This document shows, piece after piece, positions 31,266-41,145 of a DNA stretch of 64,000 nucleotides (its first letter is position 1; the number at the start of each line of letters is the position of its first letter). Both the position numbers and the translations under genes were made by a program. Origin of the DNA: Chloroflexota bacterium (GTDB lineage Bacteria > Chloroflexota > Anaerolineae > Anaerolineales > Villigracilaceae); the NCBI GenBank assembly GCA_016213105.1, contig JACRBN010000005.1:62001-126000 (forward strand), in the 5' to 3' direction. Under the pieces are notes generated by a model. That model saw only the letters and a program-made list of their open reading frames with translations. It was not told the DNA's origin and ran no database searches.

Positions 31266-34001
31266 ATGACCGAAATCGAGCGACTCAAAAAAGAACTGCA
31301 AGAAATCGCGAAAGAGCTAAAAAAACTCGAAAGAAACAGTAGAGCTTACAAAGCCTTGATTGAGCAGGGGAATCAGATGTACGAGGAGTTGAAACAGCAA
31401 GAAGCTGTATTAGAAGGCTCGGGTGCGATTGCGCAGGGGGATGGCGCAACCGCTGCGGGCGAGGGTGCGACCGTGATCCAGGAATCGATCATTGTCAACG
31501 CGGAGAAGGGGGCACGGGTTGTCATCGGAACGGAACCCGTCAAAATGTCCAGTAAGATGCGGGCGACGGCCTTGGGGCGTTACCTCGAACACATCATCGC
31601 GCATAACCGCTATTTGCAATTGCAGGGGATCCGCTCCGGGGGAAAGTTGGTCAACATCGAGTTGGAGCATATCTACATCACGTTGCGCACGACTCAACAA
31701 CGTACCATCCAGGCGGTAGAAAACTGGCTGCACGAAGAAGCGGGGCTGGCGCCTGGCGAAATGGGGCGCATGAAGATCGAGTGTTCGACTTTGCGCGAAA
31801 CCATTTCAGTGACCGTTGACCAGGCGCTGGCAGATAACCAGCACATGGTCATCCTGGGCGATCCTGGCTCGGGCAAGACCACCCTGCTGCGGTATCTGGC
31901 TCTGTTGTACGGGCGGGACCTGGCGGAAGGCGCGAAGAGTGTCCAGGAAAAGCTGAAATTGAATGAGGCGGGTTATTTGCCTGTCTTGTTGCAGCTGCGC
32001 CAGTTCGGTTCGTTCCTGAAAGAACATCGCACCAAGGATGACGGCACGGAAGGGCATGGTGTGTTGTTGGAGTTTCTCTTCCGCGCCTTGAAAGGGTTTC
32101 GGATCGACCTGCCGGATGATTTCTTCGATGCGTATTTCCAAAGCGGCAAGGCGGTGATCCTGCTGGACGGCATGGACGAAGTCGCGGATCCTGACCTGCG
32201 CGCGCGGGTGGCGCGCATGGTGGAAGCCTTTACGCTGGGGTATCCGAAATGCAGGTTTGTGATCACCAGCCGCGTGGTGGGCTATACAGGCGCATCCCGC
32301 CTAACGGGTGATTATGTCACCACCACAGTGCGTGACTTTTTGCTGGCCGATGTGGAGCAGTTCCTCAAGCACTGGCACAGGCTGGTGGCAGTGGGACAAC
32401 TAGGGCCTGGCGAAAGCGCGGATACCTTTGCCGCTTCGCAAACGGGACAGTTGATGACCGCCATTCGCGGCAATGAGCGCATCCGCGACCTGGCGATCAA
32501 CCCGCTCTTGCTGACGGTGATCGCGCTGGTGCATCGAGACCGTGTGAAACTGCCTGACCGCCGCGCCGAACTGTATGCCGAAGCTGTGGATGTGCTGCTC
32601 GGCAAATGGGACGAGGCGCGCGGCGTGGGCGCTGCCTCCATTTTGGAAGACCGCCCGTTCGAAGTGGGGGACAAACGCCTGATGCTGCAGACCCTGGCTC
32701 TGTGGATGCACGAACGCGGGCAAAAGGAAGTGACGCAGGCCGAGTTATTTGCCTTTCTTGAAAGGCAATTTGCGGGCATGGCTCCCGACCCGCAGAAACG
32801 GCGCATGGCGATTGAAAGATTTCAGCGTGTGATCGAGGAACGCACAGGTTTGCTCTCGGCGCGCGGCGAAGGCGTATACGCTTTTTCGCATTTGACCTTT
32901 CAGGAATACCTGGCGGCGATGGCCATCGCTGCGCGTGACGATTATGTGGAATATGTTTTGCGAAATAGTGACAGCGAGTGGTGGCGGGAAGTCATTCTTC
33001 TTACGGCGGGTTTCCTGAGTTCGATGAGTTATGAACGTACCACCAAATTGGTGCGCGCAATTGCAGAAAAGAAGAAAGAACCCGTGCAATATCACAACCT
33101 TGTATTGGCTTCGGAATGTATACGTGATGCGGGCTCTAATCGTTTGGATGCAAAAATTGATGAGTATATAAAGAAACAGATACGAAAATCGTTGGATATT
33201 CCCCCGCACGCATTGAATACTTTTGAACGCAGGATTCTGCGCAAACAAAAACCTGATTGGATGGAGCGCCGCGCACAGGCGATTGAAACATTGGTTCGTG
33301 CAGGTGCTGGGTATTGGTATCCGCCTTACGGGGAACCAGAATGGATCAAAATCCCCTTTGGAAAATTCTGGATGGGTGAGGAGAATGAAATCCATTCGGT
33401 TGAATTACCGGAGTTTCAAATTGCGCGTGTTCCAATCACAAATGCCCAATATGCTTTGTTTGAGCAAGACGCAAAATATAAAGCGCCAAAGGATTGGGAA
33501 GACAATCGTCTGCCAAAGGGCAAAGAGAGTCATCCTGTGGTGAATGTGACCTGGTACGATGCCATCCAGTATTGTGAATGGTTGAGTGGAAAAACAGGAA
33601 AATCGATCACCCTGCCCAGCGAAGCGGAATGGGAGAAGGCCGCGCGCTCGGATGACAAACGCGAATACCCCTGGGGAACATGGCAGGAGTATCGTGCGAA
33701 TACAGAGGAACTCGGTCTTGGAGAGACAACGCCCGTGGGCATCTTTTTGGAAGGCGCAAGCCCTTATGGATTGTTGGATATGAGCGGCAATGTCTGGGAG
33801 TGGACGAGAACCAATTACAGCACAGGCAAAGATGACTTGGAGACAAATGACACCCGTGTCCTTCGCGGCGGTTCCTTCAGCTATGCTGCGTCCGACGCTC
33901 GTTGCGCCTTCCGCCGCAGGAACGGCTCGGGCCACAGGCTCAGGAACATCGGGTTTCGAGTTGTTGTGGTCTCCCCAGCTCTTCCATCACGACGACTCTG
34001 A
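31266..34001 (+). CDS. NACHT ATPase with diversified C-terminal FGE-sulfatase domain (DGR target 1)
   Basis: This 911-residue protein opens with a coiled coil (about 1-50). A Gly-rich GSGAIAQGDGA stretch (about 55-75) leads to a NACHT domain with Walker A GDPGSGKTT (about 198-206) and Walker B VILLDGMDEV (about 297-306). A helical region contains the NACHT-associated FSHLTFQEYLA motif near 545. From about 690 to the end is a formylglycine-generating-enzyme/sulfatase-modifying-factor fold (LPSEAEWEKA, MSGNVWEW, RGGSF, GFRVV). This C-type-lectin-like fold is a usual acceptor of DGR mutation. Residues 872-895 are the variable window. A ligand-binding sensor fused to a STAND-like switch is inferred. 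Two paralogues follow on the same strand. I see no reason to assume it makes formylglycine. Confidence 0.87.
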   Translation: MTEIERLKKELQEIAKELKKLERNSRAYKALIEQGNQMYEELKQQEAVLEGSGAIAQGDGATAAGEGATVIQESIIVNAEKGARVVIGTEPVKMSSKMRATALGRYLEHIIAHNRYLQLQGIRSGGKLVNIELEHIYITLRTTQQRTIQAVENWLHEEAGLAPGEMGRMKIECSTLRETISVTVDQALADNQHMVILGDPGSGKTTLLRYLALLYGRDLAEGAKSVQEKLKLNEAGYLPVLLQLRQFGSFLKEHRTKDDGTEGHGVLLEFLFRALKGFRIDLPDDFFDAYFQSGKAVILLDGMDEVADPDLRARVARMVEAFTLGYPKCRFVITSRVVGYTGASRLTGDYVTTTVRDFLLADVEQFLKHWHRLVAVGQLGPGESADTFAASQTGQLMTAIRGNERIRDLAINPLLLTVIALVHRDRVKLPDRRAELYAEAVDVLLGKWDEARGVGAASILEDRPFEVGDKRLMLQTLALWMHERGQKEVTQAELFAFLERQFAGMAPDPQKRRMAIERFQRVIEERTGLLSARGEGVYAFSHLTFQEYLAAMAIAARDDYVEYVLRNSDSEWWREVILLTAGFLSSMSYERTTKLVRAIAEKKKEPVQYHNLVLASECIRDAGSNRLDAKIDEYIKKQIRKSLDIPPHALNTFERRILRKQKPDWMERRAQAIETLVRAGAGYWYPPYGEPEWIKIPFGKFWMGEENEIHSVELPEFQIARVPITNAQYALFEQDAKYKAPKDWEDNRLPKGKESHPVVNVTWYDAIQYCEWLSGKTGKSITLPSEAEWEKAARSDDKREYPWGTWQEYRANTEELGLGETTPVGIFLEGASPYGLLDMSGNVWEWTRTNYSTGKDDLETNDTRVLRGGSFSYAASDARCAFRRRNGSGHRLRNIGFRVVVVSPALPSRRL
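33879..33950 (+). other. DGR-like variable region 1 (VR1)
   Basis: These 24 codons lie between GGTTCCTTC and GGGTTTCGAG. Aligned without gaps to VR2 and VR3, differences occur at 28 of 72 positions, almost all first or second codon bases, while invariant blocks such as GCTCGTTGC stay fixed. At 21 of the 28 variable positions at least one copy has A. The pattern fits mutagenised copies of an AAY-rich template. Confidence 0.85.
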
Positions 34002-34110
34002 TTTCTGGCGCTCCGGACTCTGGGGCTCTGGAGTCTCTGCACTCCGGTTGAGCAAGACCAGCCGATTGAAACAAGACAGGGTTTCCCCGCGAAGCGGGGC
34101 CGCGTTAAAA
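33951..34110 (+). repeat. Conserved 160-bp VR-downstream repeat, copy 1 (IMH-like, with hairpin)
   Basis: The repeat starts at GGGTTTCGAG directly after VR1, passes the stop codon (33999-34001) and ends at GTTAAAA. By eye it differs from copy 2 at one base and from copy 3 at four. It contains the CCCCGC-GAA-GCGGGG hairpin (34085-34099). An invariant segment plus hairpin just 3' of the variable window is what a DGR needs for initiation of mutagenic homing. Confidence 0.85.
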
Positions 34111-34127
34111 ATTTTAGGAGGCACACC

Positions 34128-34583
34128 ATGATCGAAATTCCCGCACTCGTCACCACAGCCTGGACTATGCTCCAGCCGTACCTGCCTGTGATCGCCACGA
34201 AAGCCGCGGAGGGGCTGGGCCAGACCGCCGTGGTCAAAGTTTGGTCAACGATTGAAAAGCGATTCGAGGCCAAGCCCGCCGCAAAGGAAGCCCTGACCGA
34301 TCTGCTCAAGACCCCGCAGGATGCCGATGTACAGGGCGCCTTCCGCTCGCAGTTGAAGAAACTGCTGGAGGAAGATCACGCCTTCGCGGGCGACCTGGCC
34401 CAACTGCTTCAATCCGCTGGCAGTGATTACAAGGCCCAGGTCATCGGCGATGGCGCGATTGCCCAGGGAGAGGGTGCCATTGCCGTGGGAAAGGGCGCTG
34501 TTCACATTGGCGGAAACGCCTCGGGCAATACCATCGTCACAGGCGATAAGAATTCAGTCAACACTGAGAAGAAAAAGAGATGA
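34128..34583 (+). CDS. Small effector-associated-type adaptor protein with GAIAQG repeat tail
   Basis: In this 151-residue protein, residues about 1-105 are helical, with an Ala-rich N-terminus and an RSQLKKLLEED helix pair. This arrangement is familiar from N-termini of bacterial NACHT, CHAT and protease conflict proteins. Residues about 107-140 form a Gly-rich repeat (GDGAIAQGEGAIAVGKGAV, then GGNASGNTIVTGD) matching the Gly-rich stretches of the adjacent NACHT-FGE proteins. It has a textbook SD (AGGAGG, 6 bp). Its stop overlaps the start of the second NACHT-FGE gene (ATGA), so the two are translationally coupled. It probably pairs with that ATPase through the shared motif. No enzymatic residues are visible, and I know no named family for it. 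Confidence 0.75.
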   Translation: MIEIPALVTTAWTMLQPYLPVIATKAAEGLGQTAVVKVWSTIEKRFEAKPAAKEALTDLLKTPQDADVQGAFRSQLKKLLEEDHAFAGDLAQLLQSAGSDYKAQVIGDGAIAQGEGAIAVGKGAVHIGGNASGNTIVTGDKNSVNTEKKKR

Positions 34584-37462
34584 CAGATCCACGCGCTGAA
34601 ATCCAAAAGATCAAAGAAGATATCCGCAGGCTGGAGGAACTCAGGCAGAGCGGCGCCCTGCCCCCTGACCTGGCGGATGTGAGTATCGCCGCGTTGAAAA
34701 GCAAACTCCCAATCTATCAGGCCGAGCTGCAGGGAGCTGGCGCGATCGCGCAGGGAGATGGCGCAAAAGCGGTTGGCAAAGGCGGCGTGTTGGTTGGAGA
34801 TCATTTTCAGGGAAACATCTATGTAGGCGAACAACCTGAGAACGATGAACAAGCCTTGATGATCTTCAGGCGCATGGTGATGCAAACCACATCCAGTATG
34901 CCGTTACGCGGCGTGGACGTAGGCGCGTCTGACGCCACCCAATCTAAAAATACAATCGGGCTGGCCAATGTGTATGTGGATTTGGATACCACCACGCGCA
35001 CACTTCGGGAAAAAGAAGAACTCTCACACATACAAGGCAAGGAAGAAAATTCTCTTTCTTATGAATCTGTGATCCGTGAGACCAAGCCTATATCGCTTCT
35101 CCAGGCAGTCAGCGCGAACCGTTCGAGCGTTATCCTGGGCGACCCAGGCAGTGGAAAGAGTACCTTCGTTAACTTCCTGGCTTATTGCCTGGCTGCGCAT
35201 ACCCTGGAACCCACGTCGGGCTGGCTGAAACATTTGCAGGGTTGGAAAGAGGAGGATGCCGATCTGCTGCCCGTGGTGGTGATCCTGCGAGACTTTGCGC
35301 GCGCATACGCGGATGCCCTCCCGCAAAAAGTGGAGGTTTCGCATATTTGGAATTTCATCGAAGACAGGCTCAAAGCGCAAAATCTTGAGAGTGCCATCAA
35401 GCCGCTGCGCGCAGCATTGGAGGCTGGCAAAGCCATTTTATTATTCGACGGCCTGGATGAAGTACCCACCGAGAAGCAGCGAATTTTCGTGCGTGACGCC
35501 GTGCGCGTCTTTATCAAGCGCTATGACCAATGCCGCTATTTGGTGACCTGCCGCGTGCTTTCCTATCAACCGCCCGCGCACGGCAAGCCTGACCTGCGCC
35601 TGGACGAACTATCTTCCTTCGAGATTGCCGAGTTCGATGACGAGAAAATATCGCGCTTTGTGGAAGCATGGTATTCAGAACTGGCCAGGCTTGGCACGGT
35701 GAAGACCGAAGATCGGGAGGCGCTCACTGCCAAATTGGGCGAAGCCGTCCAACGGTCTGATCTGAGGCGCTTGTCATCCAATCCACTACTGCTGACAGTC
35801 ATGGCCCTGGTTCACACGCACAAGGGCAGGCTGCCAGATGCGCGCGCATTGCTGTATGAAGAGACAATTGAAATCCTGCTGTGGCGTTGGGAGCAGATCA
35901 AGCTGGGCGGGCAGGATGACTCGCCGCGCCTGCGCCAGTATTTGATGGAGGCGGGCCGCACCGACCTGGACTTGAAGCGTTTTCTGCGGGAGATCGCCTA
36001 TCAGGCGCACTCGGCGACGAAGCCCGATGAAAAGAACGAGGCGCTGGCCGATATTGACGAACATTCCTTGATTAAATCGCTCTCAGCCCTGAAACGCGAT
36101 GATCAAAACCCCGACGGCGATTGGAATTGGGCGCGCCGCATCGTGGATTTGATGAAGCTGCGCGCGGGCTTGCTGCTCGAAAGACAGCCAGGTATCTTTA
36201 CCTTTCCGCATCGCACGTTTCAGGAATATTTGGCGGGCGCGCACCTTGCCAGCCAGAATAATTTTGCGCGCTGCGCCGTGGAACTCACTCCGCAAAAAGC
36301 GCTATGGCGTGAGGTGATTCTGTACGCAGTGGGCAAGCTGGTTTATGTGGCGGAAGATCTCGATAAGCCCCTGGCCCTGGTGGCGGAACTGTGCCCTGAA
36401 AAGGGAATTGATACCGACCTGGCTTGGGGACAAGCCTGGCTTGCGGGAGATGTGTTGCAGGAAATCGGGGTAAATCGTGTCAGCGACTCTGCGTTTGGGC
36501 GTGACCTGTTGTGCCGGGTGCAGAGCCGATTAACCGATTTGATCAAAAAGGGAAAACTCGCTCCGCGCGAACGAAACCATGCGGGCAACACGCTTTCCAC
36601 CCTCGGCGACCTGCGCTTCAACCCTGACCTGTGGCATTTACCCGCGGACGAGACGCTGGGCTTCACCCTGATCCCTGCGGGCAAGTTCCTGATGGGAAAC
36701 AATGATCGTGACGATGAAAAGCCGCAGCACGAAGTGCCCCTGCCTGATTTTTGGATGGCCAGGTATCCCGTAACGGTGGCGCAGTTCCGCGCGTTTACTG
36801 AAGCGACAAAGTATTCTTTTGAATATTGGAAATACAACAACACAGCAACTCACCCTGTTGTTGCCGTCACTTGGTATGAGGCCTTAAAATATACGCAGTG
36901 GCTGGATAAGGAACTTCGTCAACACGCTGAAAGGCAGATCCAATCGGGCGTGAAGAATTCATTGTGGCAGGGACTTGCCGAAGGTAAATTGCGCGTCAGC
37001 TTACCAAGCGAAGCGGAATGGGAGAAATCCGCGCGAGGCGGCTCCCCTTTGCGAAGCATCCCTGAGGGGCGCCTTTTAGGAGATGGGCAGGGGGGTGAGG
37101 TCTATCCCTGGCAGGGTGGGTTTGATCCCGATAAAGCCAACACGTCTGAAACAAAGATCGGCGATCCCAGTGTGGTGGGCTGTTTCCCTGCGGGTGCATC
37201 ACCGTATGGTTTGCTCGACATGAGCGGCAATGTCTGGGAGTGGACGCGAAGTGTTTATAAGAAATATCCGTATCAGCCTGGTGATGGGCGTGAAGAAATT
37301 CAATCGAAAGATGCACGTGTACTTCGCGGCGGTTCCTTCTTCAGTGAGGCGTCCATCGCTCGTTGCGCCTTCCGCCGCAGGGGCAACCCAGTCGGCAGGC
37401 TCAGGAGCTTCGGGTTTCGAGTTGTTGTGGTCTCCCCAGCTCTTCCATCACGACGACTCTGA
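34580..37462 (+). CDS. NACHT ATPase with diversified C-terminal FGE-sulfatase domain (DGR target 2)
   Basis: This 960-residue paralogue begins with a helical N-terminus (1-50), then GAGAIAQGDGAKAVGKGG (about 52-69) and GDHFQGNIYVG. Its NACHT domain has Walker A GDPGSGKST (about 187-195) and Walker B ILLFDGLDEVP near 290. FPHRTFQEYLAG near 545 marks the NACHT-associated helical region. The FGE-type domain runs from about 690 to the end, with the diversified window at 921-944 before GFRVV. Within the FGE domain, at 37041-37105, an in-frame insertion (residues about 821-841) is absent from the paralogues. Its start overlaps the adaptor gene. It shares only limited similarity with its neighbours outside the NACHT and FGE cores, and shares almost all of its last 50 codons. 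Confidence 0.87.
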   Translation: MTDPRAEIQKIKEDIRRLEELRQSGALPPDLADVSIAALKSKLPIYQAELQGAGAIAQGDGAKAVGKGGVLVGDHFQGNIYVGEQPENDEQALMIFRRMVMQTTSSMPLRGVDVGASDATQSKNTIGLANVYVDLDTTTRTLREKEELSHIQGKEENSLSYESVIRETKPISLLQAVSANRSSVILGDPGSGKSTFVNFLAYCLAAHTLEPTSGWLKHLQGWKEEDADLLPVVVILRDFARAYADALPQKVEVSHIWNFIEDRLKAQNLESAIKPLRAALEAGKAILLFDGLDEVPTEKQRIFVRDAVRVFIKRYDQCRYLVTCRVLSYQPPAHGKPDLRLDELSSFEIAEFDDEKISRFVEAWYSELARLGTVKTEDREALTAKLGEAVQRSDLRRLSSNPLLLTVMALVHTHKGRLPDARALLYEETIEILLWRWEQIKLGGQDDSPRLRQYLMEAGRTDLDLKRFLREIAYQAHSATKPDEKNEALADIDEHSLIKSLSALKRDDQNPDGDWNWARRIVDLMKLRAGLLLERQPGIFTFPHRTFQEYLAGAHLASQNNFARCAVELTPQKALWREVILYAVGKLVYVAEDLDKPLALVAELCPEKGIDTDLAWGQAWLAGDVLQEIGVNRVSDSAFGRDLLCRVQSRLTDLIKKGKLAPRERNHAGNTLSTLGDLRFNPDLWHLPADETLGFTLIPAGKFLMGNNDRDDEKPQHEVPLPDFWMARYPVTVAQFRAFTEATKYSFEYWKYNNTATHPVVAVTWYEALKYTQWLDKELRQHAERQIQSGVKNSLWQGLAEGKLRVSLPSEAEWEKSARGGSPLRSIPEGRLLGDGQGGEVYPWQGGFDPDKANTSETKIGDPSVVGCFPAGASPYGLLDMSGNVWEWTRSVYKKYPYQPGDGREEIQSKDARVLRGGSFFSEASIARCAFRRRGNPVGRLRSFGFRVVVVSPALPSRRL
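37079..37100 (-). repeat. In-frame copy of the CCTCACCCC-type short repeat in NACHT-FGE 2
   Basis: On the minus strand it reads CCTCACCCCCCTGCCCATCT, matching the pattern at 2898 and 63974. It forms part of a coding insertion just before YPWQGG, where the two paralogues have only a short loop. Confidence 0.45.
37340..37411 (+). other. DGR-like variable region 2 (VR2)
   Basis: These 24 codons occupy the same place as VR1, between the same flanking sequences, with no length change. The product of this window begins FSEASIARC and ends at RLRSF. All differences from VR1 and VR3 can be explained by substitution at template adenines. Confidence 0.85.
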
Positions 37463-37571
37463 TTTCTGGCGCTCCGGACTCTGGGGCTCTGGAGTCTCTG
37501 CACTCCGGTTGAGCAAGACCAGCCGATTGAAACAAAACAGGGTTTCCCCGCGAAGCGGGGCCGCGTTAAAA
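37412..37571 (+). repeat. Conserved 160-bp VR-downstream repeat, copy 2 (IMH-like, with hairpin)
   Basis: This is nearly identical to copy 1 (one difference seen), including the non-coding part after the stop at 37460-37462. The hairpin is at 37546-37560. It is followed by an AGGAGG SD and the Avd-like remnant, the usual gene order of a DGR cassette. Confidence 0.85.
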
Positions 37572-37586
37572 AAATTAGGAGGCAGG

Positions 37587-37694
37587 ATGGCAAATGAACA
37601 GGAAATGCCGCTTTTCACGCGCACGTTTGATTTCATCACCTGGCTGCTGCCGGTGACGAATAACTTTCCACGCGCGCACAGGCATTTGAACTAA
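37587..37694 (+). pseudogene. avd: Truncated Avd-like DGR accessory gene (N-terminal 35 codons)
   Basis: A strong SD (AGGAGG) precedes ATG GCA AAT. The 35-codon product contains MPLFTRTFDFITWLLPVT and NFPRAHRHL, which resembles the first helix and the KFP-(K/R)-x-x-R motif of bacterial Avd four-helix-bundle proteins. Those are normally about 110-130 residues and bind the DGR reverse transcriptase. The frame stops at TAA (37692-37694), and the next 98 bp show no continuation in any frame that I can recognise. It directly follows VR2 and its tail, the place avd occupies in many DGRs. I read it as the stub of a deleted avd-TR-RT block; family assignment is from memory of the motif. Confidence 0.68.
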
Positions 37695-37792
37695 AGAATG
37701 AGCAAGACTACTTTTTAGAAAAACTGTGTTCTGTTGAATTGTGATATGGCTGAGTAGCATTTTTCTCCCACCGCCGACGAAGGAAAACTGAC

Positions 37793-40700: not shown

Positions 40701-40996
40701 TGTCAGAAACAGGAATTGGAAGCACCTCTGCAATCGGCTGTTTTCCGAAGGGTAAGAGTCCTTATGGCGTTTTGGAAATGAGTGGCAATGTCTGGGAATG
40801 GACGCGCACTAACTCTGATGGCAAGGAAGATTTTCAATCAAAGGACGACCGCGTCCTTACCGGCGGTTCCTTCGACGATGATGCGTCCCTCGCTCGTTGC
40901 GTCGTCCGCCTCGGGGACTACCCAGACCTCACGCACGGGGACTACGGGTTTCGAGTTGTTGTGGTCTCCCCAGTTCTTCCATCACGACGACTCTGA
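37793..40996 (+). CDS. NACHT ATPase with diversified C-terminal FGE-sulfatase domain (DGR target 3)
   Basis: This 1067-residue paralogue has AAGGA about 8 bp before its ATG. The N-terminus (about 1-110) has two hydrophobic helices (near 30-45 and 53-75), possibly membrane-associated, then a coiled coil. The stretch GSGAIAQGDGARAVGAGG and GGNVTGNFIAGDKN (about 152-187) leads to a NACHT domain with Walker A GDPGAGKST (about 304-312) and Walker B LLVLDGLDEVP near 408. FPHRTFQEYLAG lies near 645. The FGE-type domain runs from about 790 to the end, with the variable window at 1028-1051. About 30 residues encoded at 40501-40600 are an in-frame palindromic insertion between the FGE helix WL and LPSEAEWEKA. 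It is the last gene of the NACHT-FGE cluster. Confidence 0.87.
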   Translation: MAFNFDLWKEATKQKLQGWKGRMDRAGVNSAYYFLAGVSLIPIVRAVHSGDWSGLAVMGASLGGAVSTNLLANIVQKAKDKSEAEVAKILEDEVKATPELKAEIDTLLQKLDALQEAEKALSAPDKAWFVETIQRELKRLNSGIKYEAKLIGSGAIAQGDGARAVGAGGIMIGGNVTGNFIAGDKNRVVQTDTYIEKQVFEALSKTDPEVEKRRKSLEKYLNRLSRVCLSLPLAALGGGDGDESDITLDKVYIALNTTLSHEHIEEASERQKKEGVIGLTRRPEKDKPITALESVSEHKRLALLGDPGAGKSTFVKNLLAWQAGALLGKLTPPTEGIKADLVPVLIILRDMAPRLARLDVDSLPAYQRDEKLAQTVWEQIQADLGEECADFCDVLYEALQSGECLLVLDGLDEVPHDLRFRVRQAVDALFKQYHLQRVIITCRVRSYVGDSVLPNFTSRTLAPFNEEQIGNFIQHWYNTQRDLGKFNEEQAKARMNDLARAALENDMRELSSNPMLLTTMVIIHQREVGLPRERVRLYHQAVEVLLRRWQKHKVGDAALAEFLKNDLKLRAVMEVLAYQAHRASAEQSGTGTLLRKDALDLLEKGEHLGDVKLAADFLDYVDQRAGLLVGYGGELTKPTSYSFPHRTFQEYLAGSFLAGQRDRVRTFHNHAAEGDSWDIAAQLAFEEMYYNRRGENELLDLAYQLDKPDGKGEQCERVRLWAGQIIALVGKEVAERDTHPNGGTAYLSRLLPGLVYILGSDTLPPLERAEAGRVLASLGDPREEIMTLEKMVFCRVPVGEFRMGEGKEEHEVDLPEFFISRSPISNAQFDQFVKAEGYKQEKYWQEAEQAGYWSEAGFKGRFENETRNAPVDIGAPFNLSNHPVVGASWYEALAFTRWLTEYLQVTSCKLQIYDDRNDTISLDDNLQLSIINRKSEIYLPSEAEWEKASRGLGAREYPWEGKFNPNFANVSETGIGSTSAIGCFPKGKSPYGVLEMSGNVWEWTRTNSDGKEDFQSKDDRVLTGGSFDDDASLARCVVRLGDYPDLTHGDYGFRVVVVSPVLPSRRL
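40501..40600. repeat. Palindromic element inserted in frame in NACHT-FGE 3
   Basis: Two nested exact inverted pairs are visible: GCAGGTTA (40501-40508) with TAACCTGC (40564-40571), and GATTTACGAT (40525-40534) with ATCGTAAATC (40587-40596). The segment is more AT-rich than its surroundings and adds about 30 codons missing from both paralogues, without breaking the frame. Confidence 0.6.
40874..40945 (+). other. DGR-like variable region 3 (VR3)
   Basis: This is the third 24-codon window with the same flanks. Its product is rich in Asp and Tyr (FDDDAS..., GDYPDL, GDYGF), as expected when AAC codons mutate at both adenines. It is the most divergent of the three copies. Confidence 0.85.
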
Positions 40997-41105
40997 ACTC
41001 TGGCGCTCCGGACTCTGGGGCTCTGGAGTCTCTGCACTCCGGTTGAGCAAGACCAGCCGATTGAAACAAGAGAGGGTTTCCCCGCGAAGCGGGGCCGCGT
41101 TAAAA
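40946..41105 (+). repeat. Conserved 160-bp VR-downstream repeat, copy 3 (IMH-like, with hairpin)
   Basis: It shows about four differences from copy 1 over 160 bp by eye, again extending well past the stop codon (40994-40996). The hairpin is at 41080-41094. Unlike the other copies it is not followed by AGGAGG and a gene; a larger inverted repeat begins 2 bp later. Confidence 0.85.
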
Positions 41106-41107
41106 AA

Positions 41108-41145
41108 TTCAGCCAGGCGCATGTATCACCAAAAGCCTGGCTGAA
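41108..41145 (-). terminator. Inverted repeat, terminator-like for minus-strand transcripts
   Basis: TTCAGCCAGGC (41108-41118) pairs exactly with GCCTGGCTGAA (41135-41145), an 11-bp stem with a 16-nt loop. On the minus strand it is followed by TTTTTT, the form of a Rho-independent terminator. On the plus strand no T-run follows, though it may still mark the end of the NACHT-FGE operon. Confidence 0.5.

Follow-up and report, generated by a model that had tools for sequence, protein, structure and literature searches.

Between two genes for NACHT-FGE proteins in a genome of the Chloroflexota lies a short frame of 35 codons, and the question is whether it is what remains of an avd gene and, if so, what became of the DGR core to which that gene belonged. 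The window, that is the whole stretch of 64,000 nucleotides that was analysed, carries three such target genes in a row with the frame between targets 2 and 3. The original prediction had taken the frame for a truncated avd behind the second target, and had proposed that the cluster once contained, or was copied from, a complete target-avd-TR-RT cassette. The genes and the remnant are placed as follows.

31266-34001, + strand: target 1, a NACHT STAND NTPase with a C-terminal FGE-sulfatase (C-type-lectin-like) domain
34128-34583, + strand: 151-aa frame between targets 1 and 2, beginning right behind the tail of target 1
34580-37462, + strand: target 2, a NACHT-FGE protein, whose relatives in L127/L076 and L090 lie directly 5' of avd or an avd stub
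37577-37582, + strand: Shine-Dalgarno sequence of the avd stub, AGGAGG, four bases 5' of the ATG
37587-37694, + strand: avd stub, Avd codons 1-33, then two foreign codons and TAA
37686-37792, + strand: 107-nt scar 3' of the breakpoint, occupying the place of the rest of avd, TR and RT in the related locus L093
37793-40996, + strand: target 3, a NACHT-FGE protein, whose best match among the compared loci lies directly 3' of the intact L093 core

The predicted frame with its strong Shine-Dalgarno sequence is present, and its product is 35 residues followed by a stop (MANEQEMPLFTRTFDFITWLLPVTNNFPRAHRHLN). Avd was the best family for it in each of three profile libraries, which answered the profile check that the prediction had called for: NF033474 DivGenRetAVD in NCBIfam (E 4.4e-5, 23.7 bits, profile positions 1-27 of 104), PHROG 3206 "Avd protein of DGR" (E 5.2e-4, positions 10-42 of 154) and Pfam bAvd (E 0.0054, 17.6 bits, positions 5-27 of 107). 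All three matches were confined to the N-terminal part of the profile, and the bit scores lie under the curated whole-protein cut-offs (80 bits for NF033474 and 40 bits for bAvd). NCBIfam gave GrpE as well, as a weaker match (E 0.02). With 35 residues, and homology up to codon 33, the stub is far shorter than a complete Avd of about 110-120 residues. The Avd of the Bordetella phage BPP-1 DGR belongs to the same family by profile (NF033474, bAvd), and the stub differs from it in that the first 33 residues alone remain. A chance match was ruled out mainly by the DNA-level matches to avd genes of relatives. When window 37320-37720 was searched against 152 family genomes, 17 of them (the own genome counted) had a match. 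Matches situated largely within the avd part showed 74-88% identity, G104 for example 83% in 88 nt (query 279-366, window 37598-37685), and identity was 67-69% in two longer matches that take in the tail as well. Furthermore, the stub protein was 77-83% identical over 29-30 residues to the avd frames of five loci (L076, L077, L080, L081 and L082). A comparison with solved structures gave just Mx1 (E 1.4), which was taken as chance.

The homology to avd ends after codon 33, at position 37685. Five of the matches to relatives end at window 37684-37685 (G104, G128 and G190 at query 366, G025 and G183 at query 365), and the alignment of the flanks with relatives gave the same end point. Because the homology stops there, the break is a truncation with replaced sequence and not a simple frameshift; the latter was considered and rejected, as no avd homology was found beyond 37685. 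When the own genome was searched for Avd reading through stops, the stub aligned over profile positions 1-38 alone, with one TAA inside. Neither the genome nor the relatives' loci compared gave a convincing match to the scar (best weak match E 0.55), a second search likewise returned none (best 0.086 by DNA and 0.51 by translation), and no recognisable end of RT or avd was found in it. These results together confirmed a truncated avd behind the second target. Since about 80 of about 115 residues are missing, the stub peptide is probably without Avd function.

The genes on both sides of the stub have the make-up of DGR targets. The FGE-sulfatase domain, a C-type-lectin-like fold of the kind expected for such targets, was found in all three (E 1.6e-48, 4.5e-53 and 4e-42), and the three proteins are 31-35% identical in pairs. 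The 151-aa frame between targets 1 and 2 has a GAIAQGxGA motif that is present also in the N-terminal parts of all three targets, and a weak YadA-head match (E 0.034). Near the 3' end of each target is a variable repeat (VR), contained in a longer repeat named D1.

33859-33973, + strand: VR of target 1
37320-37434, + strand: VR of target 2
40854-40968, + strand: VR of target 3
33821-34117, + strand: repeat D1, copy 1, VR and post-VR tail, extending into the Shine-Dalgarno sequence
37282-37578, + strand: repeat D1, copy 2, running into the avd stub
40816-41112, + strand: repeat D1, copy 3
37546-37560, + strand: GC-rich hairpin with a GAA loop in the tail, followed by CCGCGTTAAAAA

Repeat D1 measures 297 nt, runs from the VR through the GC hairpin and is common to all three targets. 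Behind the VR its 30-nt bins are 83-100% identical across the targets, most of them 93-100%, and this near-identity in otherwise diverged genes indicates that blocks move between targets. The block looks homogenised, and on its 3' side it breaks off sharply at the Shine-Dalgarno sequence of avd. The hairpin CCCCGC-GAA-GCGGGG with CCGCGTTAAAAA occurs also at 34085-34099 and 41080-41094, so that each VR is followed by it at a distance of about 110 nt; it is a candidate for the hairpin that assists homing in DGRs. Various GC-rich hairpins precede avd at 22 of the 54 loci, compared with a rate of 7.5% after base shuffling, and those with GTA or GAA loops were seen in L122, L140, L154, L164 and L168. 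Between VR and hairpin, a CTCTG tract with 4-5 words per 61 bases was noticed by eye at 33994-34045, 37455-37506 and 40989-41040, and several relatives have CTCTG-rich tracts in the corresponding position.

Variation among the three VRs concerns 31 of 115 columns, and 26 of the 28 variable positions within core columns are at codon positions 1 or 2. These columns were compared with 13 TRs of relatives: at least half of the TRs have adenine at 22 of the 31 variable columns vs 11 of the 84 invariant ones (Fisher 5.6e-9), a result favoured by the choice of the 13 TRs from a ranking that does not penalise adenines. Four of the 13 had previously been paired to their own VR; VR rows and the TR-like rows L110, L112, L184, L137, L139, L170 and L113 were left out. 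The test was repeated with eight TRs whose identification had not involved the window VRs, each having been paired with VRs at its own locus, and gave 21 of 31 vs 11 of 84 (Fisher 3.1e-8), the rows of L077 and L087 being out of register, so that this test is weakened and not favoured. The window VRs thus appear to vary at template adenines, as read indirectly through the TRs of relatives, the own TR being missing.

The machinery expected beside such targets was absent from the assembly. The RVT_1 profile had no match in the own genome at E 0.001, and an RT profile built from seven DGR RTs (A1), with E values up to 10 allowed, yielded two RT N-terminal pieces but no full DGR-type RT; the pieces lie at C17:286673-286885 (positions 1-71) and C16:72962-73090 (positions 2-44). 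They mark two more beheaded loci of the same genome, L096:7674-7886 (G000:C17) and L097:6987-7088 (G000:C16), in each of which an FGE-type gene has behind it the N-terminal part of RT alone. The genome has no full Avd above the cut-off; apart from the stub, the Avd profile picked out two proteins below its threshold (31 and 19.7 bits), and as 23S rRNA intervening-sequence proteins (IVP) the same two reach 115.5 and 133.2 bits. Below E 0.3, a DNA search of the assembly with the VR regions, made for a TR, returned the three VRs alone, and so did an anchored VR pattern with up to 3 mismatches. The C17 VR region matched itself and short stretches at C16 (37 nt) and C27 (25 nt), so that no TR-like copy is found there either. 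Among the relatives' loci compared no TR matched the window VRs, the best (L093 and L152) having 55 non-adenine mismatches over 3 x 115 columns. The assembly thus has neither an RT gene nor a TR that matches a VR except at adenines.

The full avd beside an RT that the prediction had led one to look for was found as intact avd-TR-RT in family-level relatives and not in this genome. The closest parallel to the cluster is in G127 (C191, contig CAILYI010000191.1), where locus L093 reads target-avd-TR-RT-target and L154, on the same contig, adds a first target. The resulting order, target-target-avd-TR-RT-target, keeps three targets in the same order around the core position as in the window. Unlike the window, L093 has avd, TR and RT complete, and where its TR differs from the two VRs paired with it, the mismatches are all at adenines. 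The first target there matches window target 1 best (45.6%, 686 bits, vs 350 and 254 bits for targets 2 and 3), the middle one matches target 2 (35.3%, 434 bits, vs 280 and 277 for the other two), and the third, which comes immediately after RT, shares 59% identity with target 3 (1049 columns). The middle target is absent from the best 14 matches of window target 2, whose best matches are in L079 (62%), L090 (59%) and L127/L076 (60%); in L127/L076 a frameshifted avd lies directly behind the target. Locus L090 has the counterpart of target 2 (59%), then avd residues 4-19, RT residues 261-345 and a counterpart of target 3 (50.5% identity over residues 1-287). A palindromic insertion at about 4831-4858 of L090, inside its avd stub, is REP-like by eye. 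In L164, avd profile positions 3-63 are fused in one frame to the end of RT. At 35-62% identity the target counterparts are likely, not proven, orthologues. A search of the same-genus genome G001 for synteny, through the upstream 718-aa gene, gave no match and was thus uninformative. Deletion in place is supported most strongly by the half-deleted state of L090 taken together with the shared target order.

On these grounds the cluster is very probably a decapitated DGR, its core deleted in place and three sensors left without visible machinery. By this account the ancestor would have carried the avd-TR-RT core between targets 2 and 3, with target 1 in front, and one or more deletions would have removed avd from codon 34 onwards together with TR and RT, so that the start of avd, the 107-nt scar and target 3 remained. 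Before that loss, and by analogy with known DGRs, the TR would have been reverse-transcribed with misincorporation at adenines, and subsequent homing into the VR ends of the FGE domains would have diversified the ligand-binding faces of the NACHT sensors. With the core lost, the three sensors would now be frozen variants.

A different history, in which the core never stood at the site and a unit of target, VR, tail and some hundred bases downstream was brought in by duplication or conversion from a complete cassette elsewhere, with the avd stub as its 3' end, would account for the near-identity of the VR-tail block in three diverged targets. It would also fit the spacing at 15 stub loci (window, L084, L090, L096-L100, L104, L109, L130, L136, L158, L164 and L188), where 122-497 nt separate the target stop from the breakpoint irrespective of the next gene being avd or RT; L122 and L083/L153 were left out of these distances, their target stop being unclear. 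We consider this history unlikely for the stub, as the corresponding position is occupied by the core in L093/L154 and by both ends of it in L090, and as middle and C-terminal RT remnants occur (L105-L108, L090), so that remnants are not always the 5' end. The VR-tail block itself, nearly identical in three diverged targets, may have been copied. Between the two origins allowed by the original prediction, the evidence from L093/L154 and L090 therefore supports a complete cassette and favours "contained" over "copied from".

The targets may also be remote ones served in trans by a complete DGR elsewhere in the cell, on an unassembled contig, a plasmid or a phage, with the local core dispensable. 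Such service apparently takes place in G128, where L098, which has an RT stub behind its target, and L192 lie on different contigs. The VR of L098 (2273-2385) and the TR of L192 (3744-3857) are identical at all non-adenine sites over 114 nt and differ by 21 changes, all at adenines, and the L098 stub region is just 75.6% identical to the L192 RT start; judged from these sequences, L098 would be a remote target, and a surviving core can write in trans to a target that has a stub behind it. Passages of the report on Thiohalocapsa PB-PSB1 likewise describe trans diversification of degenerate DGR loci, and intact-RT variants in long reads at loci broken in the assembly (PMC10907252). Some DGR contigs of relatives end at the core, as in L192, where the contig end adjoins the RT start. 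As the assembly studied here (5.39 Mb, 28 contigs) is 97.55% complete, a core may lie in the part that it lacks or be carried by other members of the population. We nevertheless regard service in trans as improbable for the window, since the assembly is without RT and TR and the relatives' loci compared hold no matching TR. The other stub loci agree: under the criterion of an exact match except at adenines over at least 40 nt, no TR was found for L083, L084 (two VRs) and L109 among five G025 loci, for L090, L089, L091 and L076 among seven G128 loci, or for the own-genome VRs in L096 or L097.

Recurrence of such remnants was followed by scanning the genome collection for avd starts. From the 84 places confirmed, 80 were retained, and with one viral locus the set came to 81. 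The loci were mostly labelled Anaerolineae, Anaerolineales or Chloroflexi, a minority falling under other labels, and the one relative of the avd start on viral contigs has full avd and RT. Full avd with full RT was found at 59 of the 81, full avd with partial RT at seven and full avd without RT at five, three of which lie at most 104 nt from the end of the sequence compared; two were cut by the sequence end and one was frameshifted (L127). At the remaining seven (L122, L130, L136, L153, L158, L164 and L188) avd is truncated mid-contig. Among loci with at least 2000 nt downstream, none of six truncated ones has a full RT vs 47 of 52 with full avd (Fisher 1.1e-5). Outside the census, avd stubs are present in L084 and L090 as well, and L083 and L153 are one contig. 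A 235-aa frame at L130:6116-6823 begins within the avd stub, and its end resembles what we take to be a REP-associated tyrosine transposase.

Partial RT matches were also gathered, as a set of 15 regions chosen by eye, longer partial matches, contig-end matches and other RT types being kept outside it. The N-terminal part of RT alone remained in ten of the regions, two of them in the own genome, with the last aligned residues at 43, 71, 73, 74, 75, 87, 89, 93, 99 and 110 of 349, a clustering that is suggestive only in an eye-chosen set; the other five (L090 and L105-L108) retain middle or C-terminal parts. Seven of the ten N-terminal stubs lie behind an FGE-type gene, and L101, L102 and L103 are without one directly 5'. 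That avd and RT stubs recur points to repeated loss of the core beside targets in this group.

Selection might have kept the 35-residue frame as a functional small protein or leader peptide. The frame is intact behind its Shine-Dalgarno sequence, and by simple counting over 27 codons its median pN/pS was 0.149, vs 0.151 in the corresponding part of 14 full avds. Either the break is therefore young in comparison with the divergence of the species, or constraint still acts on the stub. Six of the avd stubs (L122, L130, L136, L158, L164 and L188) and nine of the ten RT stubs are also open to the breakpoint, L104 stopping after eight codons. Against this, avd truncation points differ between loci (profile ends 24, 40, 41, 43, 49, 63 and 85 in the census, codon 33 in the window), which argues for no fixed shortened protein, and the L090 frame from its avd-like start codon stops after five codons, at the palindromic insertion; a selected peptide is thus very doubtful. 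There is hardly any chance that the frame is an IVP fragment, a protein that shares a common fold with Avd, or a chance frame: the full avds of relatives match PF05635 too and the own genome has five IVP-family matches, but Pfam gave bAvd for the stub with no PF05635 match listed at E up to 1, NF033474 and PHROG gave Avd, and the DNA matched avd genes beside RT.

Degenerate DGR loci as such are already known in print (PMC10907252). Passages of Dore et al. 2024 describe in Thiohalocapsa PB-PSB1 NACHT and other conflict-type targets with C-terminal lectin domains, and loci with missing or pseudogenised machinery, as in the window (PMC10907252). As there described, each class retains one complete locus, unlike the window, whose assembly is without a complete core; the passages do not use the name avd, and the likeness concerns degenerate loci as such. 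Passages on the remote variable proteins of cyanobacteria (PMC7517822) describe C-type-lectin targets away from the RT and variable near the 3' end, like those of the window, and tie them to a DGR elsewhere in the genome, of which none was found for the window. Among the open-licence papers listed, no title or opening abstract mentioned an avd stub or a genome with every DGR locus coreless. What is unusual here is the assembly without a surviving core and the recurrence of stubs across species.

It is conceivable, at the level of a tentative suggestion, that the stubs are more than chance debris and that target genes survive and are passed on in these bacteria as portable receiver units, each made of a VR, a tail with hairpin and a few hundred bases of avd or RT, and still writable by a distant core; if this is true, local core loss would be a regular step that fixes sensor repertoires or centralises the writer. 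The decapitated cluster offers a natural case in which the diversifying machinery is apparently gone and three diversified immune-like sensors remain with their VR signatures. With intact and half-deleted counterparts in related species, the fixation and retention of DGR variants after loss of the writer can now be asked about, as can how long VRs hold their form once the writer is lost.
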